This document shows positions 3,945 through 48,657 of a DNA stretch of 49,294 bases, piece by piece. The position numbers and the translations under genes are program-made. The stretch is from a virus. The notes below the pieces were generated by a model. It saw nothing but the letters and a program-made list of their open reading frames with translations. It did not search any database and was not told the DNA's origin. The stretch lies in IMG/VR virus record IMGVR_UViG_3300010397_000017, positions 1-49,294 of that record. The stretch is one strand, 5' to 3'. Positions within the stretch are counted from its first letter, which is position 1; each line of letters starts with the position of its first letter.

Positions 3945-4568
3945 ATGAAAAAAGTATTTATCATTAATGGCAGTATGGCTTATGTTCAGCTGTTCCAAGA
4001 GTTGGGATATGCTATTACGAAAGATATTAACCAAGCTGATCTGGCTGTATTCACTGGGGGTGAAGATGTAACCCCAGCTTACTACGGTGATAAAGCCCAC
4101 CACTACACCTACAACAATCCTCGCCGGGATGGTGAGGAAAAGAATCTGTTTGACCTGTTGAAGAAGAATGGTGTTCCTTGTGTAGGCATCTGCCGAGGTG
4201 GTCAGTTCCTGAATGTAATGTCTGGTGGTCGTATGTATCAGCACGTAGACAAGCATGCTACAGCACGTGGTCATAGTATCACTGACTTGGAAACTGGTGA
4301 TGTAATTCATGTCTCCAGCACACACCACCAGATGATGCTCCCTGTAGGCAATTACAAATTGATTGCTACAGCTTCTCTTGGTGGTTTCCGTGAATGGTTT
4401 GATGGAAATGTGGCTAAGAAAGACATTTCCAAAGAAGACATTGAAGTGGTTTATTATCCGGAAACTAATTGTCTGTGCTTCCAGCCCCATCCAGAATTTA
4501 ATGGGGCTGAATATGAGCAGATGAAAGTTTATTTCAAACATCTGCTGAATAAATACCTGAACGTTTAA
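3945..4568 (+). CDS. Class I glutamine amidotransferase / gamma-glutamyl hydrolase (peptidase C26-like)
   Basis: The 207-residue protein has the C26/PuuD layout: FTGGEDVTPAYYG near residues 36-48, the nucleophile elbow GICRGGQ with Cys83, STHHQ (residues 124-128) where C26 enzymes have NSxHHQ, and QPHPEF with His181 and Glu183 completing the triad. Family members hydrolyse gamma-glutamyl bonds or release ammonia from glutamine. ATG abuts the previous stop (3944/3945). In this operon it could trim a gamma-glutamyl intermediate or feed ammonia to the amide ligases; which one cannot be decided from sequence. Confidence 0.88.
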   Translation: MKKVFIINGSMAYVQLFQELGYAITKDINQADLAVFTGGEDVTPAYYGDKAHHYTYNNPRRDGEEKNLFDLLKKNGVPCVGICRGGQFLNVMSGGRMYQHVDKHATARGHSITDLETGDVIHVSSTHHQMMLPVGNYKLIATASLGGFREWFDGNVAKKDISKEDIEVVYYPETNCLCFQPHPEFNGAEYEQMKVYFKHLLNKYLNV

Positions 4569-4576
4569 AGAACACC

Positions 4577-4652
4577 CTCACCGTAGCTCAGTGGATAGAG
4601 CAGTAGCCTTCTAAGCTATTGGTCGCTGGTTCGAATCCAGCCGGTGAGGCCA
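4577..4652 (+). tRNA. tRNA-Arg (anticodon TCT)
   Basis: All arms fold: acceptor CTCACCG/CGGTGAG, D stem GCTC/GAGC, anticodon stem GTAGC/GCTAT with one G-U pair, loop CTTCTAA giving anticodon TCT, T stem GCTGG/CCAGC with loop TTCGAAT, and encoded CCA. It reads AGA/AGG. It stands alone between the class I amidotransferase (ends 4568) and the ATP-grasp ligase (starts 4672), away from the other three tRNAs, which are in the late arm. Confidence 0.95.
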
Positions 4653-4671
4653 TTAATAATTGGAGAATGAA

Positions 4672-5379
4672 ATGACTCTCTATATTGTCTACCCAAAAGC
4701 CTGTGCTGAATCAGCAGCAATGCTGGCTAGTGCTTTGAAGGCTAAGAAACAATTGTGTTATGGTAATTACATGTTGCTGAATGAGAAAGCAACAGTGTTC
4801 AACTATGGTGTTGGGGGCTATCCTTCTCTGTGTGCTAAGGTTGTTGTGAATGACGGTCAAGCTGTTAATCGTTGTATTGATAAACTCACAACCTTTGATC
4901 TGTTAAAGAAGGCAGGAGTTTCTATCCCTAAGTATTCCACAAAATCCAATGTAGCAGCTAAGTGGGACACCGTAGTGTGTCGTGAGACAGTCAATGGTAA
5001 GGGAAATGAAGGACTGTCTTACTGGTATAAAGGTGATAAGGGAAGTCCAAAAGGACAGCTGTTCACTGAGCATTTTGAGCATGAGCATGAATGGCGTATT
5101 GTTGTATTCAAAGGAGTTGTTGTAGCTCGTTATCTGAAGGTGCGAGATGCTAATGATAAATGGCACTTCCAATTATACACCAAGCAAGGCTTCAAGGATA
5201 TCGATTCTGCTTGTCTAAAGGCTTCACAGGCCCTTCAAATTGATTTTGTGGGGTTTGATGTGCTTGAGAATAAAAAGGGCGTATACGTCGTTCTAGAGGC
5301 TAATAGTGGCCCTGTTATGACGGAAGAAGTTCTTGAATACATCAAGAATTATTTTAAACAATTGAAAAAGGAGAAGTAA
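4672..5379 (+). CDS. ATP-grasp ligase A (RimK-like), 235 aa
   Basis: I chose ATG 4672, preceded by TTGGAG at 6 bases, over the TTG at 4660. The protein has an ATP-grasp layout: N-terminal preATP-grasp region, then VCRETVNGKGNEG (nucleotide-binding strand and glycine-rich loop), FTEHFEHEHEWRIVVFKG, and the metal-binding end DFVGFDVL ... VVLEANSGP with the Glu and Asn expected to hold Mg-ATP. Such enzymes activate a carboxylate as acyl phosphate and join it to an amine. It shares organisation and motifs with the second copy at 9239. The substrate is unknown; a peptide- or amino-acid-forming role fits the neighbours. Confidence 0.85.
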   Translation: MTLYIVYPKACAESAAMLASALKAKKQLCYGNYMLLNEKATVFNYGVGGYPSLCAKVVVNDGQAVNRCIDKLTTFDLLKKAGVSIPKYSTKSNVAAKWDTVVCRETVNGKGNEGLSYWYKGDKGSPKGQLFTEHFEHEHEWRIVVFKGVVVARYLKVRDANDKWHFQLYTKQGFKDIDSACLKASQALQIDFVGFDVLENKKGVYVVLEANSGPVMTEEVLEYIKNYFKQLKKEK

Positions 5380-5381
5380 GG

Positions 5382-6722
5382 ATGTGTGGACTAGTGGGCA
5401 TGGCTGGTGACTTGAATGCGTCACATGAAAAAATTATGAAAGACTTGCTGGTATTTGACACTGTGCGCGGTGTTGATTCTACTGGTGTATGTTATGTAAG
5501 CAAGCATAATGATGAAGTGAAGATTGCTAAACAGATTGGCAATCCTTTTGAACTGTTTGATCAAAAGAGTTTTGACAAGGCTTCTAATGGCTTGCAGAAG
5601 GTGATGATTGGTCACAATCGTTATGCCACTAGCGGGGCTATTAGCCGCTCCAATGCACATCCTTTTGATGTAGGTAAGATTGTTGGTGTACATAACGGCA
5701 CCATCAAGAACAAATGGAATCTCCACAATCATATGGATTTTAAAGTGGACAGTGAAAATTTGTATCACCACATCCAAGAGAAGGGCCTCACTGATATGCT
5801 CGACAAGGCAGATGGTGCTTGGGCTTTAGTGTGGTGGAACAAAGAAGATAAAACTGTTAACTTCCTACGTAATAAGGAACGTCCTTTGTTCTTTAGCTCC
5901 TCCACCGATGCTAAGGGTGAAGCCGATGGTAAGACAATCTTCTGGGCTTCTGAAGCTTGGATGCTAACTGTTGCGCTATCACGAGCTAATATTGCCCATT
6001 CCAAACCAGAAGAACTGGAAGTGAATGTTCATTTTTCTGTACCTGTAGAGAATGGAGGTAAGCTGGGCAAGGTTGTTGCCAAGAAAGCTGTCCCCACCTT
6101 TCGTGACCCCTATGAAGGCCACTGGGCAAATGCATACCACCAAAGGTCTCAGCAAACAGGAACGCAGGGAAGCCAAAGCACTACGACGTCTACAGCATCT
6201 AATGTCACGGTGATTAAGTCTGATTCTCAGTCTTCTGGCTTTGATCGTTTTTATTTGAAGCGTTGCAATATTCTCTTTGAATTGCTTGATGAGAAAACCG
6301 ATGAATATGGGAAGAAATTCATTCCATGCTTTGACGGTAAAGAGCCATTCAAAGAAATCCGTCTCTATCCAACCTACGATGCTTCTCCTCTGTGGGGCTT
6401 TATTGGTGGTGAGGTGCAAGGAGACATTGAGCTGTGGAGTCCTCACAAAGAAGTTGGTAAGGGGCATTATACCGTTAGGCCTTCTTCTGTCCGTTGTCTT
6501 GTAATGCCAGAGCATAGCGGAGCAGCTAAAGAAGAAGAAGCTTGGACAGACAATCACGGTGTAACATACACCAAATCTGAATTTGATAAGAAGTGGAAAG
6601 CTTGTGGCTATTGTTCTAGCCCTCTTATCTTTGGGGATAAGAACAAGGCTTCTACTAGTGGTGAATGTTTCTGTCCAGATTGCTGTAATCATCCAGAAGT
6701 AAAATCTTTTGTTAAATTTTAG
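5382..6722 (+). CDS. Class II (Ntn-hydrolase) glutamine amidotransferase with C-terminal zinc-ribbon-like region
   Basis: The protein begins MCGLVGM, so Cys2 becomes the N-terminal nucleophile after Met removal. RGVDSTG, GHNRYATSG and GVHNGTI are the Arg-, Asn- and Gly-bearing glutamine-site motifs of PurF/GlmS/AsnB-type domains (residues 1 to about 200). No AsnB synthetase or sugar isomerase domain follows. Instead a long linker leads to a C-terminal region with CGYC and CFCPDCC, likely a zinc ribbon. At 446 aa it is longer than an isolated amidotransferase domain. It probably supplies ammonia from glutamine to a partner ligase in the operon; the coupling is inferred from position. Confidence 0.85.
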   Translation: MCGLVGMAGDLNASHEKIMKDLLVFDTVRGVDSTGVCYVSKHNDEVKIAKQIGNPFELFDQKSFDKASNGLQKVMIGHNRYATSGAISRSNAHPFDVGKIVGVHNGTIKNKWNLHNHMDFKVDSENLYHHIQEKGLTDMLDKADGAWALVWWNKEDKTVNFLRNKERPLFFSSSTDAKGEADGKTIFWASEAWMLTVALSRANIAHSKPEELEVNVHFSVPVENGGKLGKVVAKKAVPTFRDPYEGHWANAYHQRSQQTGTQGSQSTTTSTASNVTVIKSDSQSSGFDRFYLKRCNILFELLDEKTDEYGKKFIPCFDGKEPFKEIRLYPTYDASPLWGFIGGEVQGDIELWSPHKEVGKGHYTVRPSSVRCLVMPEHSGAAKEEEAWTDNHGVTYTKSEFDKKWKACGYCSSPLIFGDKNKASTSGECFCPDCCNHPEVKSFVKF

Positions 6723-6733
6723 GAGAATTTAAA

Positions 6734-7531
6734 ATGAATATCCTCGTTGGTGCTGATCCTGAATGCTTTGTTAAGCAAAATGGTAAATTTGTTTCGGCCT
6801 TTGGTATGATTAAAGGTGATAAGAAGAATCCACAGAAAGTTGCTCGTGGAGCAGTTCAAGTGGACGGTATGGCTCTGGAATTTAACATTGATCCAGCAGC
6901 TACGGAAGAAGAATTCTGCATTAATATTCAATCTGTATATAATCAGCTTAAAGCTATGGTGCCGGGCTATGAAGTTGTAGCCACTCCTGTTGCTGATTTC
7001 TCTTTTGAATATCTGAAGGGACAACCTAAGGAAGCTCTTGAGCTGGGTTGCGATCCCGATTTTAATGCATGGACTGGTGATATTAATCCTCGTCCCGATG
7101 GCAATCGTCCTATGCGTACCGCTTCTGGTCATGTTCATATTGGCTTCACTAACGGGGTTAATCCGGCTGATGGTAATCATCAATACCAATGTAATATGAT
7201 TGGTAAGCAGATGGACTTCTATTTGGGATTGGCTTCTTTGTTCTACGACACAGATGTACGCCGTCGTGAAATGTATGGCAAGGGTGGTGCCATTCGCTAT
7301 AAACCATATGGCGTTGAATATCGTACGCTGTCTAATGTTTGGCTGAACAGTGAAAAACTGATGGCTTGGGTGTTCCGTAATGTACAACGCGGCATGAAAG
7401 ACTTGCTGGAAGGTAAGGAACTGTGCCAGAAGTATGGCGATATTCAAGCTATCATCAATACCAGCAATAAAGATGCTGCAATGAAGATTATTAAAGCAGA
7501 GAAACTGGAGATTCCACATGCCTATTGCTAA
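6734..7531 (+). CDS. Amidoligase, COOH-NH2 ligase type 2 (phiEco32-like)
   Basis: This 265-aa protein shows glutamine-synthetase-superfamily landmarks of the COOH-NH2 ligase type 2 family: GADPECF at the start, QVDGMALEFNIDP (residues 42-54), a CDPDFNAW..NPRPD segment, ASGHVHIGF, and GAIRYKP..VEYRTLSNVW near the C-terminus. The acidic and histidine residues are candidates for the Mg-ATP site, and the Arg for phosphate binding. The family is predicted to form amide bonds between a carboxylate and an amine using ATP. AGGAG (6721-6725) lies upstream. The 3' end overlaps the next gene by 14 bases. Confidence 0.85.
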   Translation: MNILVGADPECFVKQNGKFVSAFGMIKGDKKNPQKVARGAVQVDGMALEFNIDPAATEEEFCINIQSVYNQLKAMVPGYEVVATPVADFSFEYLKGQPKEALELGCDPDFNAWTGDINPRPDGNRPMRTASGHVHIGFTNGVNPADGNHQYQCNMIGKQMDFYLGLASLFYDTDVRRREMYGKGGAIRYKPYGVEYRTLSNVWLNSEKLMAWVFRNVQRGMKDLLEGKELCQKYGDIQAIINTSNKDAAMKIIKAEKLEIPHAYC

Positions 7532-8135
7532 TGCTTCTTTGGATGATTTGGCTCAAATGTTTAACAATAGCCTTGTTATCCATAAGAATAAGCCTATTAA
7601 AATTAATCGTTTTAATAGCAAAACTAATGTGAAAGTGTTTGATTTGGTGTCTCAACGTAATATTGACATTGATGTAGACACTCTTGATTTGAAAGCTCCA
7701 GGTCGTTGCTTTGGCTTTGTAAATTTCATGGATTATGTTATTTATGTTTCTCGTAATCCAGTACGTCGTTATAAAGTTGGTATTTGTCAAGAGAGTGCTA
7801 ACTTCCAAGCTCCCCAGAAGTATATTGATATCCTGCATTCTCCTGATGCCAAACGTGTATATGATTTTACTTGCCCTGAAATTGTAGACACAATTTACAA
7901 TCGTTACCCTTCCATTCCAGAAATGCATAAGCAGATTAAGAATGGCGCTAAGATTGTGGCATTTGATCGTCAGTTTGCTGTTGATCAATTTAATAATGTT
8001 TATTACAAAATGAATAGAGTGGGTAAGCTCAAAGGTTTTGAGTCTATTAATGACATTCAATTTGACAAGGGCTGGGAACATCTAACCGTTTTGCTGGACA
8101 ACAATCATGAAAAAAGTATTCCAATTTTTAAATAA
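7518..8135 (+). CDS. Uncharacterised protein of the amide-ligase operon, 205 aa
   Basis: ATG 7518 has GGAG about 10 bases upstream, inside the end of the preceding gene. The protein shows no signal peptide or membrane segment. A central segment (RNPVRRYKVGICQ) and the C-terminal half look like a mixed alpha/beta domain, but I recognise no family. It overlaps genes on both sides (7531 and 8107), so it is translationally tied to the two amidoligases and may be a partner or substrate-carrier protein; this is inference. Confidence 0.75.
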   Translation: MPIANASLDDLAQMFNNSLVIHKNKPIKINRFNSKTNVKVFDLVSQRNIDIDVDTLDLKAPGRCFGFVNFMDYVIYVSRNPVRRYKVGICQESANFQAPQKYIDILHSPDAKRVYDFTCPEIVDTIYNRYPSIPEMHKQIKNGAKIVAFDRQFAVDQFNNVYYKMNRVGKLKGFESINDIQFDKGWEHLTVLLDNNHEKSIPIFK

Positions 8136-9228
8136 AGCCAAACCTCTGGAAGGTGACGTAGGTATTGAGATTGAATGTGAGGGTAAGAATCTCGGAATTG
8201 TTAATGATAAATATTGGAAAACTGAAGATGATGGCTCTCTGAGGGGTCATTACCCTAATGAACGGGCTGAATTCGTCTTGAAGAAACCAATTGGAATTGA
8301 GAAGGTTAAAGAAGCTGTAGAGAGTTTGAAAGAAGGCTTGCCAGAAGCAAAGCTAAACTTCTCTTATCGCACTTCAGTACACGTTCATGTAAATGTACAA
8401 GACCTAACCAATGAAGAATTGTTGAATTTCATGTACATCTATCTGCTTCTGGAAGAACCGCTGGTTAATTTCTGTGGCCGTGATCGTAAGGGCAATCGCT
8501 TCTGTATGCGTATTCAAGATGCTGAAGGTTTTGTATTCACCTTAGCTCGGGTATTTGAGGGGGGTATTCCTGTAGCTCTGAATGGCTTTAATGAGAACGA
8601 TATTCGTTATTCCTCTATGAATATTGCGTCTTTGCGTAAATATGGCTCTATTGAATTCCGTGCTATGCGTGGTAATATGGATTCGGATTTGATTGAATCT
8701 TGGGCACAAACACTGGTGAATCTGCGGGAATTTTCTAAGAAGTTTAAATCCCCTAAGGAAATTGCTCAGCACTACCAGAAGAAAGAAGCTAAGGAATTCA
8801 TGCAAGAAGCCGTAGGCCATACGTACAATCTCCTAACCTATCCACGTATGGTGAAAGAGATTCAGCGTAGCTTCTCTTTGTCTCTCGATTTGCCATTCTG
8901 TTATAAGGAATATAAAGAACCTGAGAAGGCTGCTCCATTGGAGGAAGATGCTCTTGATGCTACATTTAAAGAGTTTAATCGTTGGAAGATGTGGACTGCT
9001 CATAAATTCCGTGACATGCGTATTAAAGAACGGAAGGTAGATGGTGTGTATATCCAAATGCGTTGGCCAGAAGGACGAGGTGATGATTGGGCAGATGCTG
9101 GATGGGTTATGGATGACTCTCCATATTATGACTTTGTAAATCAATGGGATGCTCGTCGATTGGCTCGTGAAGCCGGTGATGGTCGTGTTCCTATTGCACG
9201 TCCTCGTGCTCCTCGTCGTCCTGCCTAA
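8107..9228 (+). CDS. Amidoligase family protein (second glutamine-synthetase-like amide ligase)
   Basis: The N-terminal 230 residues carry the amidoligase pattern: GIEIECEG, a W.TEDDGSL acidic strand, RAEFVLKKP, SVHVHVNV, and SSMNIASLRKYGSIEFRAMRG, where the acidic and Arg residues would bind Mg-ATP and the acyl phosphate. The remaining about 140 residues are helical and charged and end in an Arg/Pro/Ala-rich tail (VPIARPRAPRRPA). The protein differs from the amidoligase at 6734, so it is not a simple duplicate. The start lies inside the preceding gene. The tail could contact nucleic acid or be a peptide acceptor; that is speculation. Confidence 0.85.
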   Translation: MKKVFQFLNKAKPLEGDVGIEIECEGKNLGIVNDKYWKTEDDGSLRGHYPNERAEFVLKKPIGIEKVKEAVESLKEGLPEAKLNFSYRTSVHVHVNVQDLTNEELLNFMYIYLLLEEPLVNFCGRDRKGNRFCMRIQDAEGFVFTLARVFEGGIPVALNGFNENDIRYSSMNIASLRKYGSIEFRAMRGNMDSDLIESWAQTLVNLREFSKKFKSPKEIAQHYQKKEAKEFMQEAVGHTYNLLTYPRMVKEIQRSFSLSLDLPFCYKEYKEPEKAAPLEEDALDATFKEFNRWKMWTAHKFRDMRIKERKVDGVYIQMRWPEGRGDDWADAGWVMDDSPYYDFVNQWDARRLAREAGDGRVPIARPRAPRRPA

Positions 9229-9238
9229 TGGAGAATAT

Positions 9239-9997
9239 ATGAAAATTTATGCATACAACAATGGCAGTAAATCTGCTAAAGCTCTGGCTGAAAAGCTTAA
9301 CATCAAAATTCTGAAACATGAAGGAAAGCCAATCCGTTTTAAAGGCCCTCTTATTAATTGGGGTAATAGTGGTGACATTAAGCGTCATATTGAATGTGGG
9401 GGTTGTCTCAACCCACCCAATGCCGTTAGGAACGCTGTAAACAAGCTACAGGCGTTTAAATTGATGGAGGCAGGGGTGAGTATCCCCTCCTTTACTGATG
9501 AGCACCAAGAGGCTGTAAAGTGGCTTAATGAAGGTTCTACAATTATTGTTCGTCACAAGCTTAATGGACATAGTGCAGAAGGTTTGGAGATTGTAAATCC
9601 AAATGAGGCAGGTGAACATGATGATTTACCAGAAGCTCCCCTTTACACTAAATATATTAAGAAAGACCAAGAGTGGCGTATTCACGTCTTCCAAGGCAAG
9701 GTGTTCTTTGAACAGCGTAAAGCACGTAAGAAGGACGTTCCTGATGACAAGGTGAATTGGCAAGTACGTAATTTGAATGGTGGATTTATTTATTCTCATG
9801 TCAACGTAGATGCTCCTAAGAACGTTAAAGAGGAAGCAATCAAAGCTGTAGAAGCTCTTGGTCTAGACTTCGGAGCTGTTGACATTCTCACAACTAAACG
9901 AGGAGAAGCATATGTTCTCGAAGTTAACACAGCCTGTGGTCTCGAAGGAACAACCTTGGAGAAATACGCTGAACAGTTTGCCAATCTGGCAGCCTAA
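9239..9997 (+). CDS. ATP-grasp ligase B (RimK-like), 252 aa
   Basis: ATG 9239 is preceded by GGAG (9230-9233); the longer in-frame extension overlaps the previous gene and has no ribosome site. Motifs parallel ATP-grasp A: KLQAFKLMEAGVSIP, IIVRHKLNGHSAEGLEIV (nucleotide loop), YTKYIKKDQEWRIHVFQGKV, and GLDFGAVDIL ... AYVLEVNTACGLEG for metal and ATP. It closes the amide-ligase cluster. Two similar ATP-grasp enzymes in one operon suggest sequential additions or different acceptors. Confidence 0.85.
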   Translation: MKIYAYNNGSKSAKALAEKLNIKILKHEGKPIRFKGPLINWGNSGDIKRHIECGGCLNPPNAVRNAVNKLQAFKLMEAGVSIPSFTDEHQEAVKWLNEGSTIIVRHKLNGHSAEGLEIVNPNEAGEHDDLPEAPLYTKYIKKDQEWRIHVFQGKVFFEQRKARKKDVPDDKVNWQVRNLNGGFIYSHVNVDAPKNVKEEAIKAVEALGLDFGAVDILTTKRGEAYVLEVNTACGLEGTTLEKYAEQFANLAA

Positions 9998-12153: not shown

Positions 12154-12504
12154 ATGCCAGAAGTTTTTAATTATGTAGTACAAGGACAGGCAGCTCTAGC
12201 TAGAAATGCTGAACAGTTTCTAGGAATTCGAGATGGTAATGGTAATCTAAGACGGATTCCTGTTGATATGGGACAGCCTCATATTCCAGAGCCTATTCCC
12301 CAACCAGATTTTATCCATGAAATTGATGGAGTACAAGTAGTGATTCCGGGTTGGGCTAAATATATTGCTCAAGAAAAGACTGGTGAAGTTTGGGCTTTTG
12401 AGTACGAGCCAGTTAAAGCTGGGAAGGTTTACAGTGGGCGGGGTGGTAGAGAAAAACTTATTCTGAATCCTGAGGAATATGAGATGTGGGTGAAATTGAT
12501 TTGA
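12154..12504 (+). CDS. Hypothetical protein, 116 aa, upstream of the sigma factor
   Basis: ATG follows AAGAGAATAAT, a weak purine-rich site. The protein has a Pro-rich middle (HIPEPIPQPDF) and a beta-rich C-terminal part. No family is recognised. Its stop TGA (12502-12504) overlaps a TTG start of the sigma-like gene, so the two are probably co-translated. Confidence 0.7.
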   Translation: MPEVFNYVVQGQAALARNAEQFLGIRDGNGNLRRIPVDMGQPHIPEPIPQPDFIHEIDGVQVVIPGWAKYIAQEKTGEVWAFEYEPVKAGKVYSGRGGREKLILNPEEYEMWVKLI

Positions 12505-12962
12505 TTGAAGAACACTACCAAAAAAACAAGCTCCAATATATGAAATCTTTAACATTCCGTGCTGGTACAGAATGGGATGCTGAAGATGTTCTCCATGACG
12601 CTTATGAACGAGCCATTAAATACTATGGCTCATACGATGGCATACAGGAGTTTGGAGCTTGGTTTCGTACAATTCTTAATAATGCCCTACGAGCCCATTT
12701 AAATGCCTCTAAGGGCCATTTCGTAAGCTTAGATGAGGTTGAGGAGGAGAGCATCCCTTGTTCTCAATTCTCCTCTGAAATGTTGAAGGAGATTTACCAA
12801 TTCATTAAAACTAAAAACTCAGTTCAACAGGAAGTGTTGATGCTCCACTTGAAACATGGTTATAGAGCCATTGATATTAGTCAAATCACAGAGCATTCTT
12901 ATCCAAATTGTAGACAGATTATTAGTAGATTTATGGAAGAATTGAAGGAGAAATACAGCTGA
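12501..12962 (+). CDS. Small sigma-70-family (ECF-like) RNA polymerase sigma factor, 153 aa
   Basis: A region 2-like segment (AEDVLHDAYERAIKYYGSYD then FGAWFRTILNNALRAHL) matches the ECF pattern of -10 recognition and core binding. After a short acidic linker, a region 4-like helix-turn-helix follows (VQQEVLMLHLKHGYRAIDIS ... NCRQIISRFMEELKEKY). Regions 1 and 3 are absent, as in ECF factors. The start may be TTG 12501 (TTGA overlap with the previous stop) or GTG 12486. With no phage RNA polymerase gene in the window, this factor is the best candidate to switch host polymerase to late promoters, as gp36 does in phiEco32. Confidence 0.78.
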   Translation: MIEEHYQKNKLQYMKSLTFRAGTEWDAEDVLHDAYERAIKYYGSYDGIQEFGAWFRTILNNALRAHLNASKGHFVSLDEVEEESIPCSQFSSEMLKEIYQFIKTKNSVQQEVLMLHLKHGYRAIDISQITEHSYPNCRQIISRFMEELKEKYS

Positions 12963-15216: not shown

Positions 15217-15921
15217 ATGGGCTTGGTAGCTAATAAAAAACAAGGTAATAAACAATTCGTAGAACAAGCAAACATCACTCCAGGCAACTATCCTGCTCGA
15301 TTGGTACAACTGATTGACTTGGGCTTGCAAGCTCAACGTGCATTCCAAGGCAAGGATAAGCCACCTGCTCAAGAGATTATGCTCACCTACGAACTGGTAG
15401 ATGAATATATGAAGGATGATGCAGGTAATGATATTGAGGATAAGCCTCGATGGATTAGTGAAACCCTGCCATTCTTTGGCTTGCATGCTGACAAGGCTAA
15501 GAGCACACAGCGCTATCATGCTTTTGATCCTAATGAAGATTGGGGTGGTGATTTTGCACAAGCTGTAGGTTTGCCTATTAATGTAACGGTGGTAAACAAT
15601 CCAGCAGCTAATGGTAAGGTGTATGACAATGTAGCAGGCATTTCCCCTATGCGTCCACGAGATGCACAACAATGTCCTGAATTGAAAAACCCTATCCGTG
15701 TATTCGATTTGGACAATCCAGATGTAGCTGTGTTTAATGGTTTCCCTGAATGGATTCAGACTAAGATTAAGAACAATCTGAATTATGCAGGCAGTAAGCT
15801 GGAGAAAGCTCTAACTGGCTCTCCAGTAGGGCAGAAAGAAGCCGATAAACCTAAGGAGATTAAGAAGGCTAAAGAAGCTCCTAAGGCTGTAGATAATGAC
15901 GATGATGACAATCCATACTAA
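15217..15921 (+). CDS. Single-stranded DNA-binding protein, T7 gp2.5-like
   Basis: The 234-aa protein has a beta-rich body (residues 1 to about 190, with ITPGNYPARLVQLIDLG and EIMLTYELVDEYM strands), a Lys/Pro/Ala linker and an acidic tail ending DNDDDDNPY with an aromatic last residue. That tail is the hallmark of T7 gp2.5 and bacterial SSBs, used to dock polymerase and helicase. Its position between polymerase and exonuclease supports the call. ATG lies 3 bases after the previous stop. Confidence 0.82.
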   Translation: MGLVANKKQGNKQFVEQANITPGNYPARLVQLIDLGLQAQRAFQGKDKPPAQEIMLTYELVDEYMKDDAGNDIEDKPRWISETLPFFGLHADKAKSTQRYHAFDPNEDWGGDFAQAVGLPINVTVVNNPAANGKVYDNVAGISPMRPRDAQQCPELKNPIRVFDLDNPDVAVFNGFPEWIQTKIKNNLNYAGSKLEKALTGSPVGQKEADKPKEIKKAKEAPKAVDNDDDDNPY

Positions 15922-44327: not shown

Positions 44328-45929
44328 TTATTTGAAGGCTACACCACCAAATCGTGGGGCAAACTGGATGACATTGGGCCTATCCATTCCTTCTCTTCGT
44401 TGTTTAGGTTTTACAGCAATCTCTACGGCAGATGCAAGAGCATCTTTAATGTCATCATGAGCTGGACGGGCTAATACAAGTTCTTCTTCAAGAACATCTG
44501 TATATCCTCCTTTGAAATGCCAAATAGACTGGTTGTCATATCTATGCTCTAAAGCCGCTGCGATACGTTCTTGTTTATTACCCTCATTCCTAGTAGGTCT
44601 AAATTCATCGATAGAGAGCCTTAAACCTTCTTCTCTTAGTCTATCCTTTAAATCTCGTACAATAACTGCCTGAGCCACTGTAACCTCTGCTCTAAGCTTT
44701 TTAAACTCCCATTTAGAATGGAGAGCAGCTACTCTAGCAAAATATTCAGAAATCTTATCACTCTTAAAATGATCAATATCTAGAATGTAAATAAAGCCTT
44801 CAGAATCAATTCCAATTACCACAATAGCTGTACTATCGCTTTTCTTACTTAGAGAATAAGCAAAGTCGATGGAGGCATAGACATTAAGTTTGTTACGCTT
44901 ATAATACCAATCTCCTGATTCTTGTTTCAAGAATTTCTTATCGTAATATTGGAATTTAGAACGATCAATTCTATTACTTCCAGGATCATTAGGATCATTA
45001 TAATATTGAGCAAAGAATTGAATTCTATCTTCATACTGAGCCCTAATACGAGCTAAGACTTGCTGATCAAATCCAAATACCTTCTTATCACTAGGGCGAA
45101 TCTGTTTAGGCCAAATAAATACACCATCTCGTTCTACAGCGTATTCCTTAATCTCCCAAACCTTCATACGATCAACTACATCACCTTCTTCATTGTAAAC
45201 ATCATATTCTTGATTACGCCATGTAGCATAAATATCAGAAGGATGGTAACGAGTACCACAAGCCATAGTGAATCCGCCAGCATTAAGAATAGATGTAAAC
45301 TGAGAGGATTTCTTCGATACACTTTCTCGTCCATCTTCTGTATAAGCATTCTCCGGAACTACGAGGTCATCTGGAATAAGAATATCGGCATGCCAGCCAG
45401 TAGTGTTAGTAGTAAGTCCGGCTGTTGCAATAGTAGCATCCCGAATCCCCTCGCGTCTACGAGATTCATGATCAATAGATATAGCATCTTGACTCCATTT
45501 CTCTCTCTTACCTTCCTGTGGATGGATGTATTCTGGATAGTAACGGGTATAGGTCGAAGACGTCAGGATGTTCTTGATGGCATAGAGCTGGGTAATTGCC
45601 AGAGAGGCTGTCGCTGAAACATATAGAATAGTAACCTCTGGGTGACGGGTGATAATCCAAGCTGCCCATGTTGCCACCATATGGCTCTTTAGATGAGCTC
45701 GTGGAAGCATAATTAGCTTGTTCGTTACTCCCGGCTTTCCCTGACCGAATAATCCATATTCTTGCATCCATTGAAAAATTTCCTTATGTACTTCACCATA
45801 CATATATCCCGGATTAACTAAACGAGCAAAGAGAAATAAATCTTCTTTAGCGGCTTCTCTTAGCTGTCTAGCCTCTTCAGGCATCTTCTCAATTTTCTTC
45901 TTAGCTTCAATAAGCCACTTTTCTTCCAT
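44328..45929 (-). CDS. terL: Terminase large subunit, 533 aa
   Basis: The ATPase has a Walker A variant LPRAHLKS (Lys81), a TILYVSATASLA segment, and Walker B ADILIPDDLV (Asp187, Asp188 region). The RNase H-fold nuclease shows YASIDFAYS (Asp355) and a C-terminal HDDIKDALA. It packages DNA into the prohead. ATG overlaps the small subunit stop as TAATG. Confidence 0.94.
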   Translation of the reverse strand: MEEKWLIEAKKKIEKMPEEARQLREAAKEDLFLFARLVNPGYMYGEVHKEIFQWMQEYGLFGQGKPGVTNKLIMLPRAHLKSHMVATWAAWIITRHPEVTILYVSATASLAITQLYAIKNILTSSTYTRYYPEYIHPQEGKREKWSQDAISIDHESRRREGIRDATIATAGLTTNTTGWHADILIPDDLVVPENAYTEDGRESVSKKSSQFTSILNAGGFTMACGTRYHPSDIYATWRNQEYDVYNEEGDVVDRMKVWEIKEYAVERDGVFIWPKQIRPSDKKVFGFDQQVLARIRAQYEDRIQFFAQYYNDPNDPGSNRIDRSKFQYYDKKFLKQESGDWYYKRNKLNVYASIDFAYSLSKKSDSTAIVVIGIDSEGFIYILDIDHFKSDKISEYFARVAALHSKWEFKKLRAEVTVAQAVIVRDLKDRLREEGLRLSIDEFRPTRNEGNKQERIAAALEHRYDNQSIWHFKGGYTDVLEEELVLARPAHDDIKDALASAVEIAVKPKQRREGMDRPNVIQFAPRFGGVAFK

Positions 45930-46426
45930 TATTTAAGCCTTACAATATCAGCAGTGAACTCTTCAGAGACACGAGAGGCAAAAGCCTTTTCCTGCTCAAT
46001 TTCAGCCTTTGTAGGGCGTCCAGCAGCTCTTGTGCTCCATCCTCTATCTGCAAGCCATTTAGCTGCTTGCATAGCATTCTGAGGATTCTTAACACTTTCA
46101 ATAATCTTCTTAATACCTTTAGCCCTAAGCTTAAATTCAAGCTCTTCTCGCCAGTCATCGATATGTTTACGAATAGCTTTATTCTCTAATAAACGTTGCC
46201 AATGTCTCCATCCACAGAAATATGTATTAGCAAATTCATATTCTGTAACGTCTTCCATTTCTAAATATAGACGTTTGATGGATGGAAGAATTTTACCATT
46301 ATACTCGTGATCATTATCTTTTAATGTATAAACTGCGTGATCTGTATAATTAATTTCTAGGAAGAGAGACTGGGTGATATACCTACCCATCTCATCTACC
46401 ATCTGTTCCTTATTTGGAATATTCAT
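45929..46426 (-). CDS. terS: Terminase small subunit (probable), 165 aa
   Basis: Position directly before terL, size, and a helical C-terminal region (FANTYFCGWRHWQRLLENKA; NPQNAMQAAKWLADRGW) match small terminases of T7-like and related phages, which bind DNA and load the motor. The end VRLK overlaps the terL start. It overlaps the i-spanin gene by 17 bases. Confidence 0.78.
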   Translation of the reverse strand: MNIPNKEQMVDEMGRYITQSLFLEINYTDHAVYTLKDNDHEYNGKILPSIKRLYLEMEDVTEYEFANTYFCGWRHWQRLLENKAIRKHIDDWREELEFKLRAKGIKKIIESVKNPQNAMQAAKWLADRGWSTRAAGRPTKAEIEQEKAFASRVSEEFTADIVRLK

Positions 46427-47539: not shown

Positions 47540-47636
47540 GTCCCTTGCGGGACAAGGAGAAGACTAAACGTCTTCGACTGTTCCTTCCGTACTAGAACAT
47601 ATTGCCGAAGGCGTCTAGGAACGCTCCTTGCGGAGC
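47540..47636. other. Pair of TTGC-loop hairpins upstream of the late arm
   Basis: GTCCC-TTGC-GGGAC (47540-47553) and GCTCC-TTGC-GGAGC (47623-47636) share loop and size. They may be processing or protein-binding sites on the start of the late transcript, or terminators of opposite transcription. No U-run follows either. Confidence 0.4.
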
Positions 47637-47993
47637 AAGAGACATATTCTCAAGAAACATTCTCAAGGGCATATCTCAAGGAATATTGTGTATATTCCGA
47701 AATTGGTAATTTTTATGAGAAATTTTCGAGGTGTAATGCACCTATCTGCACTTAGGCTAAACCCCCTCTAGGGGGCATAAGCTCAAGAATTTGTCCTCAA
47801 GGAAATATTTCTCAAGAGAAATGTTAGTGAGTACTAACTAGGGGTGTAATATTACTCTCATCATCTATTCATCCTATGATGCTCATCATTTATCCTCAAG
47901 AAATATCCTCAAGCCATTGATTCTAAAGGCTTTATTGTGCCGCTAGGCACGTTACAGATATGTCCCTTATATATGTCTAAACGCCTTCGGCAA
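47602..47993. repeat. CTCAAG iteron array inside a 17-bp inverted repeat; candidate replication origin/regulator site
   Basis: CTCAAG occurs at 47649, 47662, 47675; 47782, 47796, 47811; and 47895, 47908, always on the same strand with 13-15 bp steps inside a cluster. TTGCCGAAGGCGT at 47602-47614 recurs as its reverse complement at 47981-47993, and the match extends to 17 bp with one difference, so the array is flanked symmetrically. Inside are AT-rich DNA (47688-47725), a CCCCC-TCTA-GGGGG hairpin (47762-47775), GTTAGT/ACTAAC (47823-47838) and the palindrome GTAATATTAC. There is no gene. Confidence 0.65.
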
Positions 47994-48210: not shown

Positions 48211-48239
48211 TTGACAAGATAAAGAGAGTATGCAATAAT
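48211..48239 (+). promoter_or_regulatory. Early promoter P1 (sigma-70 type)
   Basis: TTGACA at 48211-48216, 17-bp spacer, AATAAT at 48234-48239. It is a near-consensus host sigma-70 promoter reading into the early arm. The spacer ends AGTATGC, as in P2. Confidence 0.87.
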
Positions 48240-48265
48240 CTGTCTCACTGGTTAGGCAAGTAGGC

Positions 48266-48287
48266 GTGTTGGTCCCAAGGGACACAC
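48266..48287 (+). other. Stem-loop GTCCC-AA-GGGAC with outer GTGT/ACAC in the P1 transcript
   Basis: A compact hairpin between P1 and P2, about 25 bases after the predicted P1 start. It could stabilise the P1 RNA 5' end or act as an operator for P2. Confidence 0.45.
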
Positions 48288-48304
48288 GGTAGAACGTAAA
48301 CCAG

Positions 48305-48333
48305 TTGACAAGCTGTAAGTAGTATGCAATACT
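48305..48333 (+). promoter_or_regulatory. Early promoter P2 (sigma-70 type)
   Basis: TTGACA at 48305-48310, 17-bp spacer, AATACT at 48328-48333. P1 and P2 share TTGACAAG and AGTATGCAATA, so one is a copy of the other or both bind the same regulator. Confidence 0.87.
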
Positions 48334-48339
48334 GTTTCA

Positions 48340-48416
48340 CATTGGGGACAGACACAATGCTCTGTTGTAGGCCCAATGTCTGGAAGGCGTAAGCCTGAAG
48401 ACATTCTTTAACAATT
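48340..48416 (+). promoter_or_regulatory. Leader hairpin, boxB-like hairpin and boxA 1 (rRNA-type antiterminator)
   Basis: A long stem CATTGGG/CCCAATG (48340-48346, 48372-48378) with inner ACAGA/TCTGT is followed by AGGC-GTAA-GCCT (48385-48396) and then ATTCTTTAACAATT (48403-48416). The last matches the boxA of rRNA operons except at one or two positions. The order hairpin then boxA is the rRNA order. NusB/NusE(S10) binding and antitermination of the early RNA are inferred. Confidence 0.68.
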
Positions 48417-48600: not shown

Positions 48601-48657
48601 GCAAGCAATCCGCTTGCGAGTAATTACAGTCTATTAGTTGATGCTCTTTAACAATCT
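48601..48657 (+). promoter_or_regulatory. Second boxB-like hairpin and boxA 2
   Basis: GCAAGC-AATCC-GCTTGC (48601-48617) precedes TGCTCTTTAACAAT (48642-48655), identical over 14 bases to the E. coli rRNA leader boxA as I remember it. It lies about 310 bases after P2 and 220 before the first early gene. Two antiterminator units in one leader suggest strong antitermination. Confidence 0.72.

Follow-up and report, generated by a model that had tools for sequence, protein, structure and literature searches.

A polar array of CTCAAG iterons around a conserved core element in the non-coding divide of a Zobellviridae-like podovirus: a probable packaging site

We have identified an array of eight CTCAAG iterons in the non-coding DNA (the divide) that separates the gene arms of a podovirus resembling Zobellviridae. 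The array is conserved among relatives and co-located with the recorded terminal-repeat ends of relatives. The array probably surrounds the place where the linear DNA of these phages is cut and packaged. We consider it fairly likely that the site is a concatemer junction of the T7 type with a terminal repeat, and that the iterons are terminase-recognition sites; from the observations above we infer the genome ends of the phage, the iteron binder and the mechanism.

The window is the whole record of 49,294 bases. Relatives of its large terminase subunit (TerL) belong to Zobellviridae (e.g., Pseudomonas phage PA11 and Vibrio phages), and homologues of its ribonucleotide reductase include those of Roseobacter phage SIO1 and kin. 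The genome encodes a T7-like primase/helicase, a polA-type polymerase, a separate exonuclease gene, a sigma-like gene and four tRNAs. From the divide, the early arm reads to the right and the structural arm to the left; a cluster of amidotransferase, amidoligase and S6-glutaminyl-transferase-like genes is located in the early arm (3945-9997). Comparison of the divide with phage records by DNA similarity gave no match, core-length blastn queries returned short chance matches or close Vibrio relatives only, and the Rfam search gave tRNAs alone at the gathering threshold, the three matches in the region being weak and short of that threshold.

Iteron array and conserved core

The eight CTCAAG copies are located on the plus strand at 47649, 47662 and 47675, at 47782, 47796 and 47811, and at 47895 and 47908. 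They form three blocks (3/3/2), with spacings of 13 and 13, 14 and 15, and 13 bp, respectively, and about 85-110 bp between blocks. A first-pass annotation had described eight copies in clusters of three, three and two, in one direction, 13-15 bp apart and in the non-coding divide, all of which agrees with the positions; the AT-rich stretches and GC hairpins that it mentioned are also present. The 17-bp inverted repeat said to enclose the array is complementary at 16 of 17 positions (94%, one mismatch). The features of the region are as follows.

47602..47618, unstranded: outer inverted repeat, late-side arm, itself a GCCGAAGGC mini-hairpin
47649..47680, plus: iteron block, late-gene side (3 CTCAAG, 13 bp apart)
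47691..47780, minus: conserved core (G-rich block, palindrome, AT-rich block), in TerL orientation
47705..47726, minus: AT-rich block AAAATTTCTCATAAAAATTACC
47729..47743, unstranded: palindrome AGGTGTAATGCACCT, with a predicted cut between 47736 and 47737; counterpart of the O4/K4 and ICBM1 repeat ends
47737..47849, unstranded: predicted direct terminal repeat, 113 bp, the distance between the palindrome copies
47762..47776, unstranded: G/C block CCCCC-TCTA-GGGGG, a reduced form of the G-rich block of the family
47782..47816, plus: iteron block within the predicted terminal repeat (3 CTCAAG, 14 and 15 bp apart)
47841..47856, unstranded: second, weaker palindrome copy GGGGTGTAATATTACT, sharing GGTGTAAT, with a predicted cut between 47849 and 47850
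47895..47913, plus: iteron block, early-gene side (2 CTCAAG, 13 bp apart)
47977..47993, unstranded: outer inverted repeat, early-side arm, a GCCTTCGGC mini-hairpin
48211..48333, plus: two sigma70-type promoters (TTGACA-17-AATAAT; TTGACA-17-AATACT) into the early arm

Eight copies of any hexamer within 270 bp were reached in none of 6000 Markov-1/-2 resamplings of the divide (maximum six). The density of the hexamer elsewhere, proposed earlier as a check, gave a divided answer: CTCAAG occurs 37 times across the whole window against 32.6 expected, i.e., without overall enrichment, whereas close pairs at the array spacing number four against 0.00 expected from shuffles. Since some hexamer is present nine times in two of 66 stretches of equal length (1374 bp) elsewhere in the window, and whole-window enrichment is lacking, the case for the array lies in its layout and conservation and not in its count. 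It is the same-direction arrangement in three blocks, together with its conservation, that makes the array distinctive; the copy number by itself is not unique.

A TerL search for relatives yielded 80 loci out of 291 candidates, several with the same hexamer clusters upstream of TerL. The alignment of 13 regions delineated, between the iteron blocks, a core of ~90 bp consisting of a G-rich block, a GGTGCATTGCACC palindrome and AT-rich AAATTTCTCnnGAAATT. The core of the window, in which the G-rich block is short, scores 58.5 bits (E 9e-16, nhmmer, 13-seed model with the window as one seed). A primer of the R-loop or G-quadruplex type might be imagined for the G-rich block, but the shortness of this block in the window does not favour it. 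The iterated model gave 75 matches with 51 distinct sequences, three of the 51 being partial or weak (E 6e-6, 0.04 and 0.1). The full-length core has the orientation of TerL in every locus where the latter is known, and was present in 15 of 17 complete or partial contigs (absent from G017 and G023). It is conserved more widely than the iteron blocks flanking it. Of 31 loci with complete flanks, 20 (among them the window) have CCGAAGG upstream of the core when read in the direction of TerL, and nine have CCTTCGG downstream.

At least three CTCAAG or CTTGAG copies within about 200 bp were found in 12 of 49 core-bearing loci (duplicate L240 dropped from the counts, some others being near-identical), altogether 73 iterons, and in all 73 the direction is uniform within each of the 12 phages. 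Neighbouring iterons, i.e., pairs at most 20 bp apart, are spaced by 10 (3 pairs), 11 (3), 12 (17), 13 (13), 14 (4) or 15 bp (1), so that the spacing, for which conservation in relatives had been named as a check, is kept at 10-15 bp in 41 of 41 pairs. Up to three blocks occur, at about -190 to -80, -36 to +2 and +85 to +171 from the core start, with stray copies outside them in L014 (one at -47) and L030 (one at -77); G015 adds four iteron copies. The first block is absent from L019, L027 and L045, the contigs of L057 and L015 begin too close to the core to show whether it exists, and the L223 contig ends ahead of the third. A scan of viral contigs for the iteron pattern gave at least 120 stretches; these were set aside, since the hexamer can also recur in coding repeats. 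In six relatives (L014, L040, L086, G015, G018 and G008) we noted a further palindrome near GAGAATNATTCTCATT, roughly 50-110 bp before the core palindrome and near the middle iteron block, which was not seen in the printed region of the window.

A chance or low-complexity repeat without function might be suspected for a hexamer with 37 copies in the window, but this is extremely improbable given the resamplings, the layout common to 12 phages and the in-phase CTTAAG variants in three of them (L024, L030 and L019); conservation already contradicts it.

Alternatively, a protein regulating the two divergent arms, early and late, could bind the array, which lies between them. The two early promoters listed above are strong (11 and 10 of 12) and only 300-400 bp off, and the phage encodes a sigma-like protein. 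The closest good promoters are, however, outside the array, the late strand is devoid of promoter-like sites in the region scanned, and such sites are not commoner in the region than in shuffles (3 vs 5.6). In relatives it is the core with the repeat ends, and not evidently promoters, that the array accompanies, the promoter scan covering the window alone. Transcription control is in our opinion improbable. The product of the sigma-like gene (12486-12962) is a small sigma70/ECF-like protein that exceeds the TIGR02937 cut-off with 49.2 bits. All 17 genomes compared encode it, and it is a candidate late-gene sigma factor. Downstream of both early promoters CTTTAACAA occurs twice, at 48406 and 48642-48653, once as TGCTCTTTAACA, which resembles the boxA antitermination element of rRNA operons; across 14 genomes, 11 of 36 copies of CTTTAACAA are found on the early side and strand at no more than 1.6 kb from the core.

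Recorded genome ends and the predicted terminal repeat

The records of Pseudomonas phages O4 and K4 contain an exact terminal repeat of 74 bp in the same place, which corresponds to the G-rich core segment. The right end of this repeat (GGTGCA/TTGAC, the slash marking the end) is inside the palindrome known from the metagenome contigs, and its left end (GTGCAA/TACACC) inside a second palindrome copy; the two phages belong to one genus and may thus not be independent evidence. In Lentibacter phage ICBM1, whose record annotates a 172-bp terminal repeat, the highest-scoring core match of the entire genome spans the end of that repeat (E 1.9e-5 genome-wide). In VpV262 (138-bp repeat) the right half of the core element begins 3-4 nt past the repeat boundary, in a weak and partial match that is not significant (genome-wide E 1.5). 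Klebsiella phage Klyazma is the exception: its 711-bp repeat, mapped by PhageTerm and Sanger sequencing according to the available text of PMC9960094, ends about 50 bp short of the core. The core thus coincides with the repeat ends of relatives exactly in O4 and K4, by straddling in ICBM1, weakly in VpV262 and not in Klyazma.

Terminal repeats in the divide of this family have been published, along with their conserved G+C-rich end; the paper covering ICBM1 determined repeats of 159-173 bp by PacBio and recognised an ORF-free divide in SIO1 through about 80% identity to them (available text of PMC6775973). The record of Erwinia phage Pecta begins 84 bp before the core match, at GGCACCCC. Other observations count against the core as a genome end: CVT22, of the same family, was reported as circularly permuted (in the part of PMC4505115 at hand), and PS32B.6 has a 59-bp end overlap at positions other than the palindromes. 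In TC6 and GP100 the break of the record falls in a G-run, and assembly may therefore account for some of the breaks close to the core; contig breaks there were left out as evidence of physical ends, G-run assembly breaks being indistinguishable from these. For TC6, the available text of PMC6209634 holds no terminus data.

A second palindrome copy 48-196 bp upstream was detected at p<0.05 in 20 of 44 loci (PWM test), against about two expected. The left copy of the window, GGGGTGTAATATTACT, fails this test alone (p 0.79); the 8-mer GGTGTAAT is common to both palindrome copies, which account for two of its three occurrences in the window. Cutting both at GGTGTAA/T is predicted from the sequence to give a 113-bp repeat, within the size range of the family. 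The late-side block of three iterons would then lie outside this repeat, the middle three within it, and the early-side two beyond its other end. The record itself has ends identical over 123 bp and assembles as a circle.

The T7-type junction would operate as follows. Replication would yield head-to-tail concatemers, in which TerL would cut within two GTGCATTGCAC-like palindrome copies bounding a short direct terminal repeat. The CTCAAG iterons would be the sites for the specificity subunit of the terminase, which may position the cuts by building a polar nucleoprotein array across the junction, broadly like the role proposed for the direct repeats around the SPP1 pac cut. The similar positions of the blocks relative to the core and their uniform direction in 12 phages count in favour of a packaging site. 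To our knowledge, the recognition and duplication of terminal repeats in T7-type phages are still poorly defined by sequence.

Candidate binders and switching of the repeat word

The following genes are relevant to binding of the iterons.

15217..15921, plus: NGO0469-family 'replication initiation' protein, candidate iteron binder if the array is an origin
44328..45929, minus: TerL, best NCBIfam match T7-type NF033889
45929..46426, minus: candidate small terminase subunit (TerS), phrog_8035 (unknown function), adjoining TerL, with predicted helices

TerL matches NF033889 (termin_lrg_T7) with E 6e-38 and 131 bits, below the cut-off of 150; a likeness to the T7-type model at this level would fit a genome end with a terminal repeat. 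The product of 45929-46426, the best candidate for the specificity subunit, is a putative small terminase subunit judging from its position and predicted helices: in the model, short helices at 50-81 are followed by a long helix (pLDDT 77). It is encoded in 16 of 17 genomes, the exception being G007, a 35-kb contig, and gave no PDB fold match and no match to a named family.

Relative to the fixed core, the word reads CTTGAG in the window, L022, L015, L027 and L045, and CTCAAG in the remaining array phages; the two differ solely in the central dinucleotide of CTnnAG. Other words occupy similar positions in core-bearing phages, namely CTGAGG (L083, L074) and CCTCAG (G009/L016). CTGAGT in L025 has five copies, which is chance level for the composition of L025, and in many core-bearing phages a clear repeat word is not apparent. 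By this comparison, the putative recognition word switches as a set between phages (CTCAAG, CTTGAG, CTGAGG, CCTCAG). Mapped on trees, the change between CTCAAG and CTTGAG takes two switches for the TerS candidate (12 rows, 11 in the shared set), four for TerL (11 rows) and two for P0001 (9 rows). Alignment columns separating both words without overlap number three, one and 12, a separation attained by label shuffles in 2%, 65% and 12% of cases, respectively, uncorrected for kinship. As the early gene P0001 also needs only two switches, co-segregation of the word with the TerS candidate may be linkage; switch counts and separating columns hint at the TerS candidate, yet do not separate it from linkage. 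Among 16 genomes no gene tracks the array by presence or absence. P0001 (107-676) is a conserved early protein of unknown function, present in 16 of 17 genomes, with a mostly helical model (pLDDT 87) and no fold relative with E under 0.001 in the structural search.

A conserved cut element combined with a fast-switching array that is uniform per phage would amount to a testable recognition code, and would predict genome ends for the circular metagenome contigs of the family. It would also represent a natural experiment in the joint change of a protein and many copies of its site.

The first-pass annotation had likened the array to an iteron origin. In that case a phage initiator, possibly the NGO0469-family protein, would bind CTCAAG and open the AT-rich block, and replication would proceed outward along both arms, the position at a genome end being secondary or dual. 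Phased identical direct repeats beside AT-rich DNA, the geometry of iteron origins, are indeed what the array consists of. In relatives, DnaA boxes (TTWTNCACA) occur at most 600 bp from the core in six of 14 genomes (nine of 50 boxes), where random placement averages 1.1 genomes and reached six in none of 5000 trials, but the region of the window itself is without any of them. GC skew, suggested as a check, does change sign near the divide: the cumulative curve peaks near 22 kb and drops back towards it. This is fully confounded with gene strand, which alone would explain it. The earlier remark that no Rep protein is apparent holds for plasmid-type Rep proteins, none being found; the phage does encode an initiation-type protein, as 15217-15921 matches NF046043 ('phage replication initiation protein, NGO0469 family'; E 4e-32, 111 bits, cut-off 75) and is present in 17 of 17 genomes compared, which makes it an alternative candidate binder. 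Its name is an annotation, however, and the protein has an acidic C-terminal tail, which would also fit an SSB.

A genome-end and packaging site fits better than an origin because the array surrounds the element where the recorded repeats of O4/K4, ICBM1 and, weakly, VpV262 end, relatives that are distinct from one another in sequence. Of the original claim, what holds is that the array is genuine, conserved and iteron-like and occupies an important non-coding position; its best-supported identity is not an origin, which we regard as possible but rather unlikely. Since DnaA boxes are enriched near the core in relatives, replication may nevertheless have a role near the ends. One could also imagine a single polar array serving both packaging, with two terminase cuts, and replication start, its word switching as a set between reverse-complement forms while the core orientation is fixed, so that polarity would have been reversed at least twice without loss of function; this we consider doubtful.

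Comparison with known systems

Iteron plasmid origins and the lambda O iterons are short phased direct repeats beside AT-rich DNA. The array described here differs in being split into three blocks around a genome end, with no plasmid-type Rep found. The R sites of lambda cosB are repeated small-terminase sites beside the cut, on one side only, in a phage with cohesive ends; here, in contrast, iterons lie within a predicted direct repeat as well as to either side of it. SPP1 belongs to the headful phages. Its pac site appears to be the nearest functional parallel to the array, by analogy: in SPP1/SF6, sets of direct repeats lie around the terminase cut and some are implicated in small-terminase binding, as the available part of PMC4737164 describes. 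According to the same text, SPP1 pac differs in spanning the start of the small-terminase gene and in having three kinds of repeat, and the binding domain of SF6 is largely non-specific, with little specificity for such repeats (PMC4737164). In the window and its relatives a single hexamer, repeated uniformly 3-8 times at intervals of 10-15 bp, surrounds two palindromic predicted cut sites.

The closest likeness in position is with the terminal repeats of Zobellviridae (VpV262, 138 bp; ICBM1, 172 bp; O4/K4, 74 bp), which are likewise located in the non-coding divide between divergent arms, with a repeat end inside or adjoining the same core element and, except in the printed repeat of VpV262, a conserved G-rich end. 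The named phage records compared around the core differ in having at most one CTCAAG or CTTGAG copy there, and no description of an iteron array around these repeats was found in the literature searched. Judged against the available text of PMC6775973, the repeats and their G+C-rich end are known, and the iteron array around them appears to be new.
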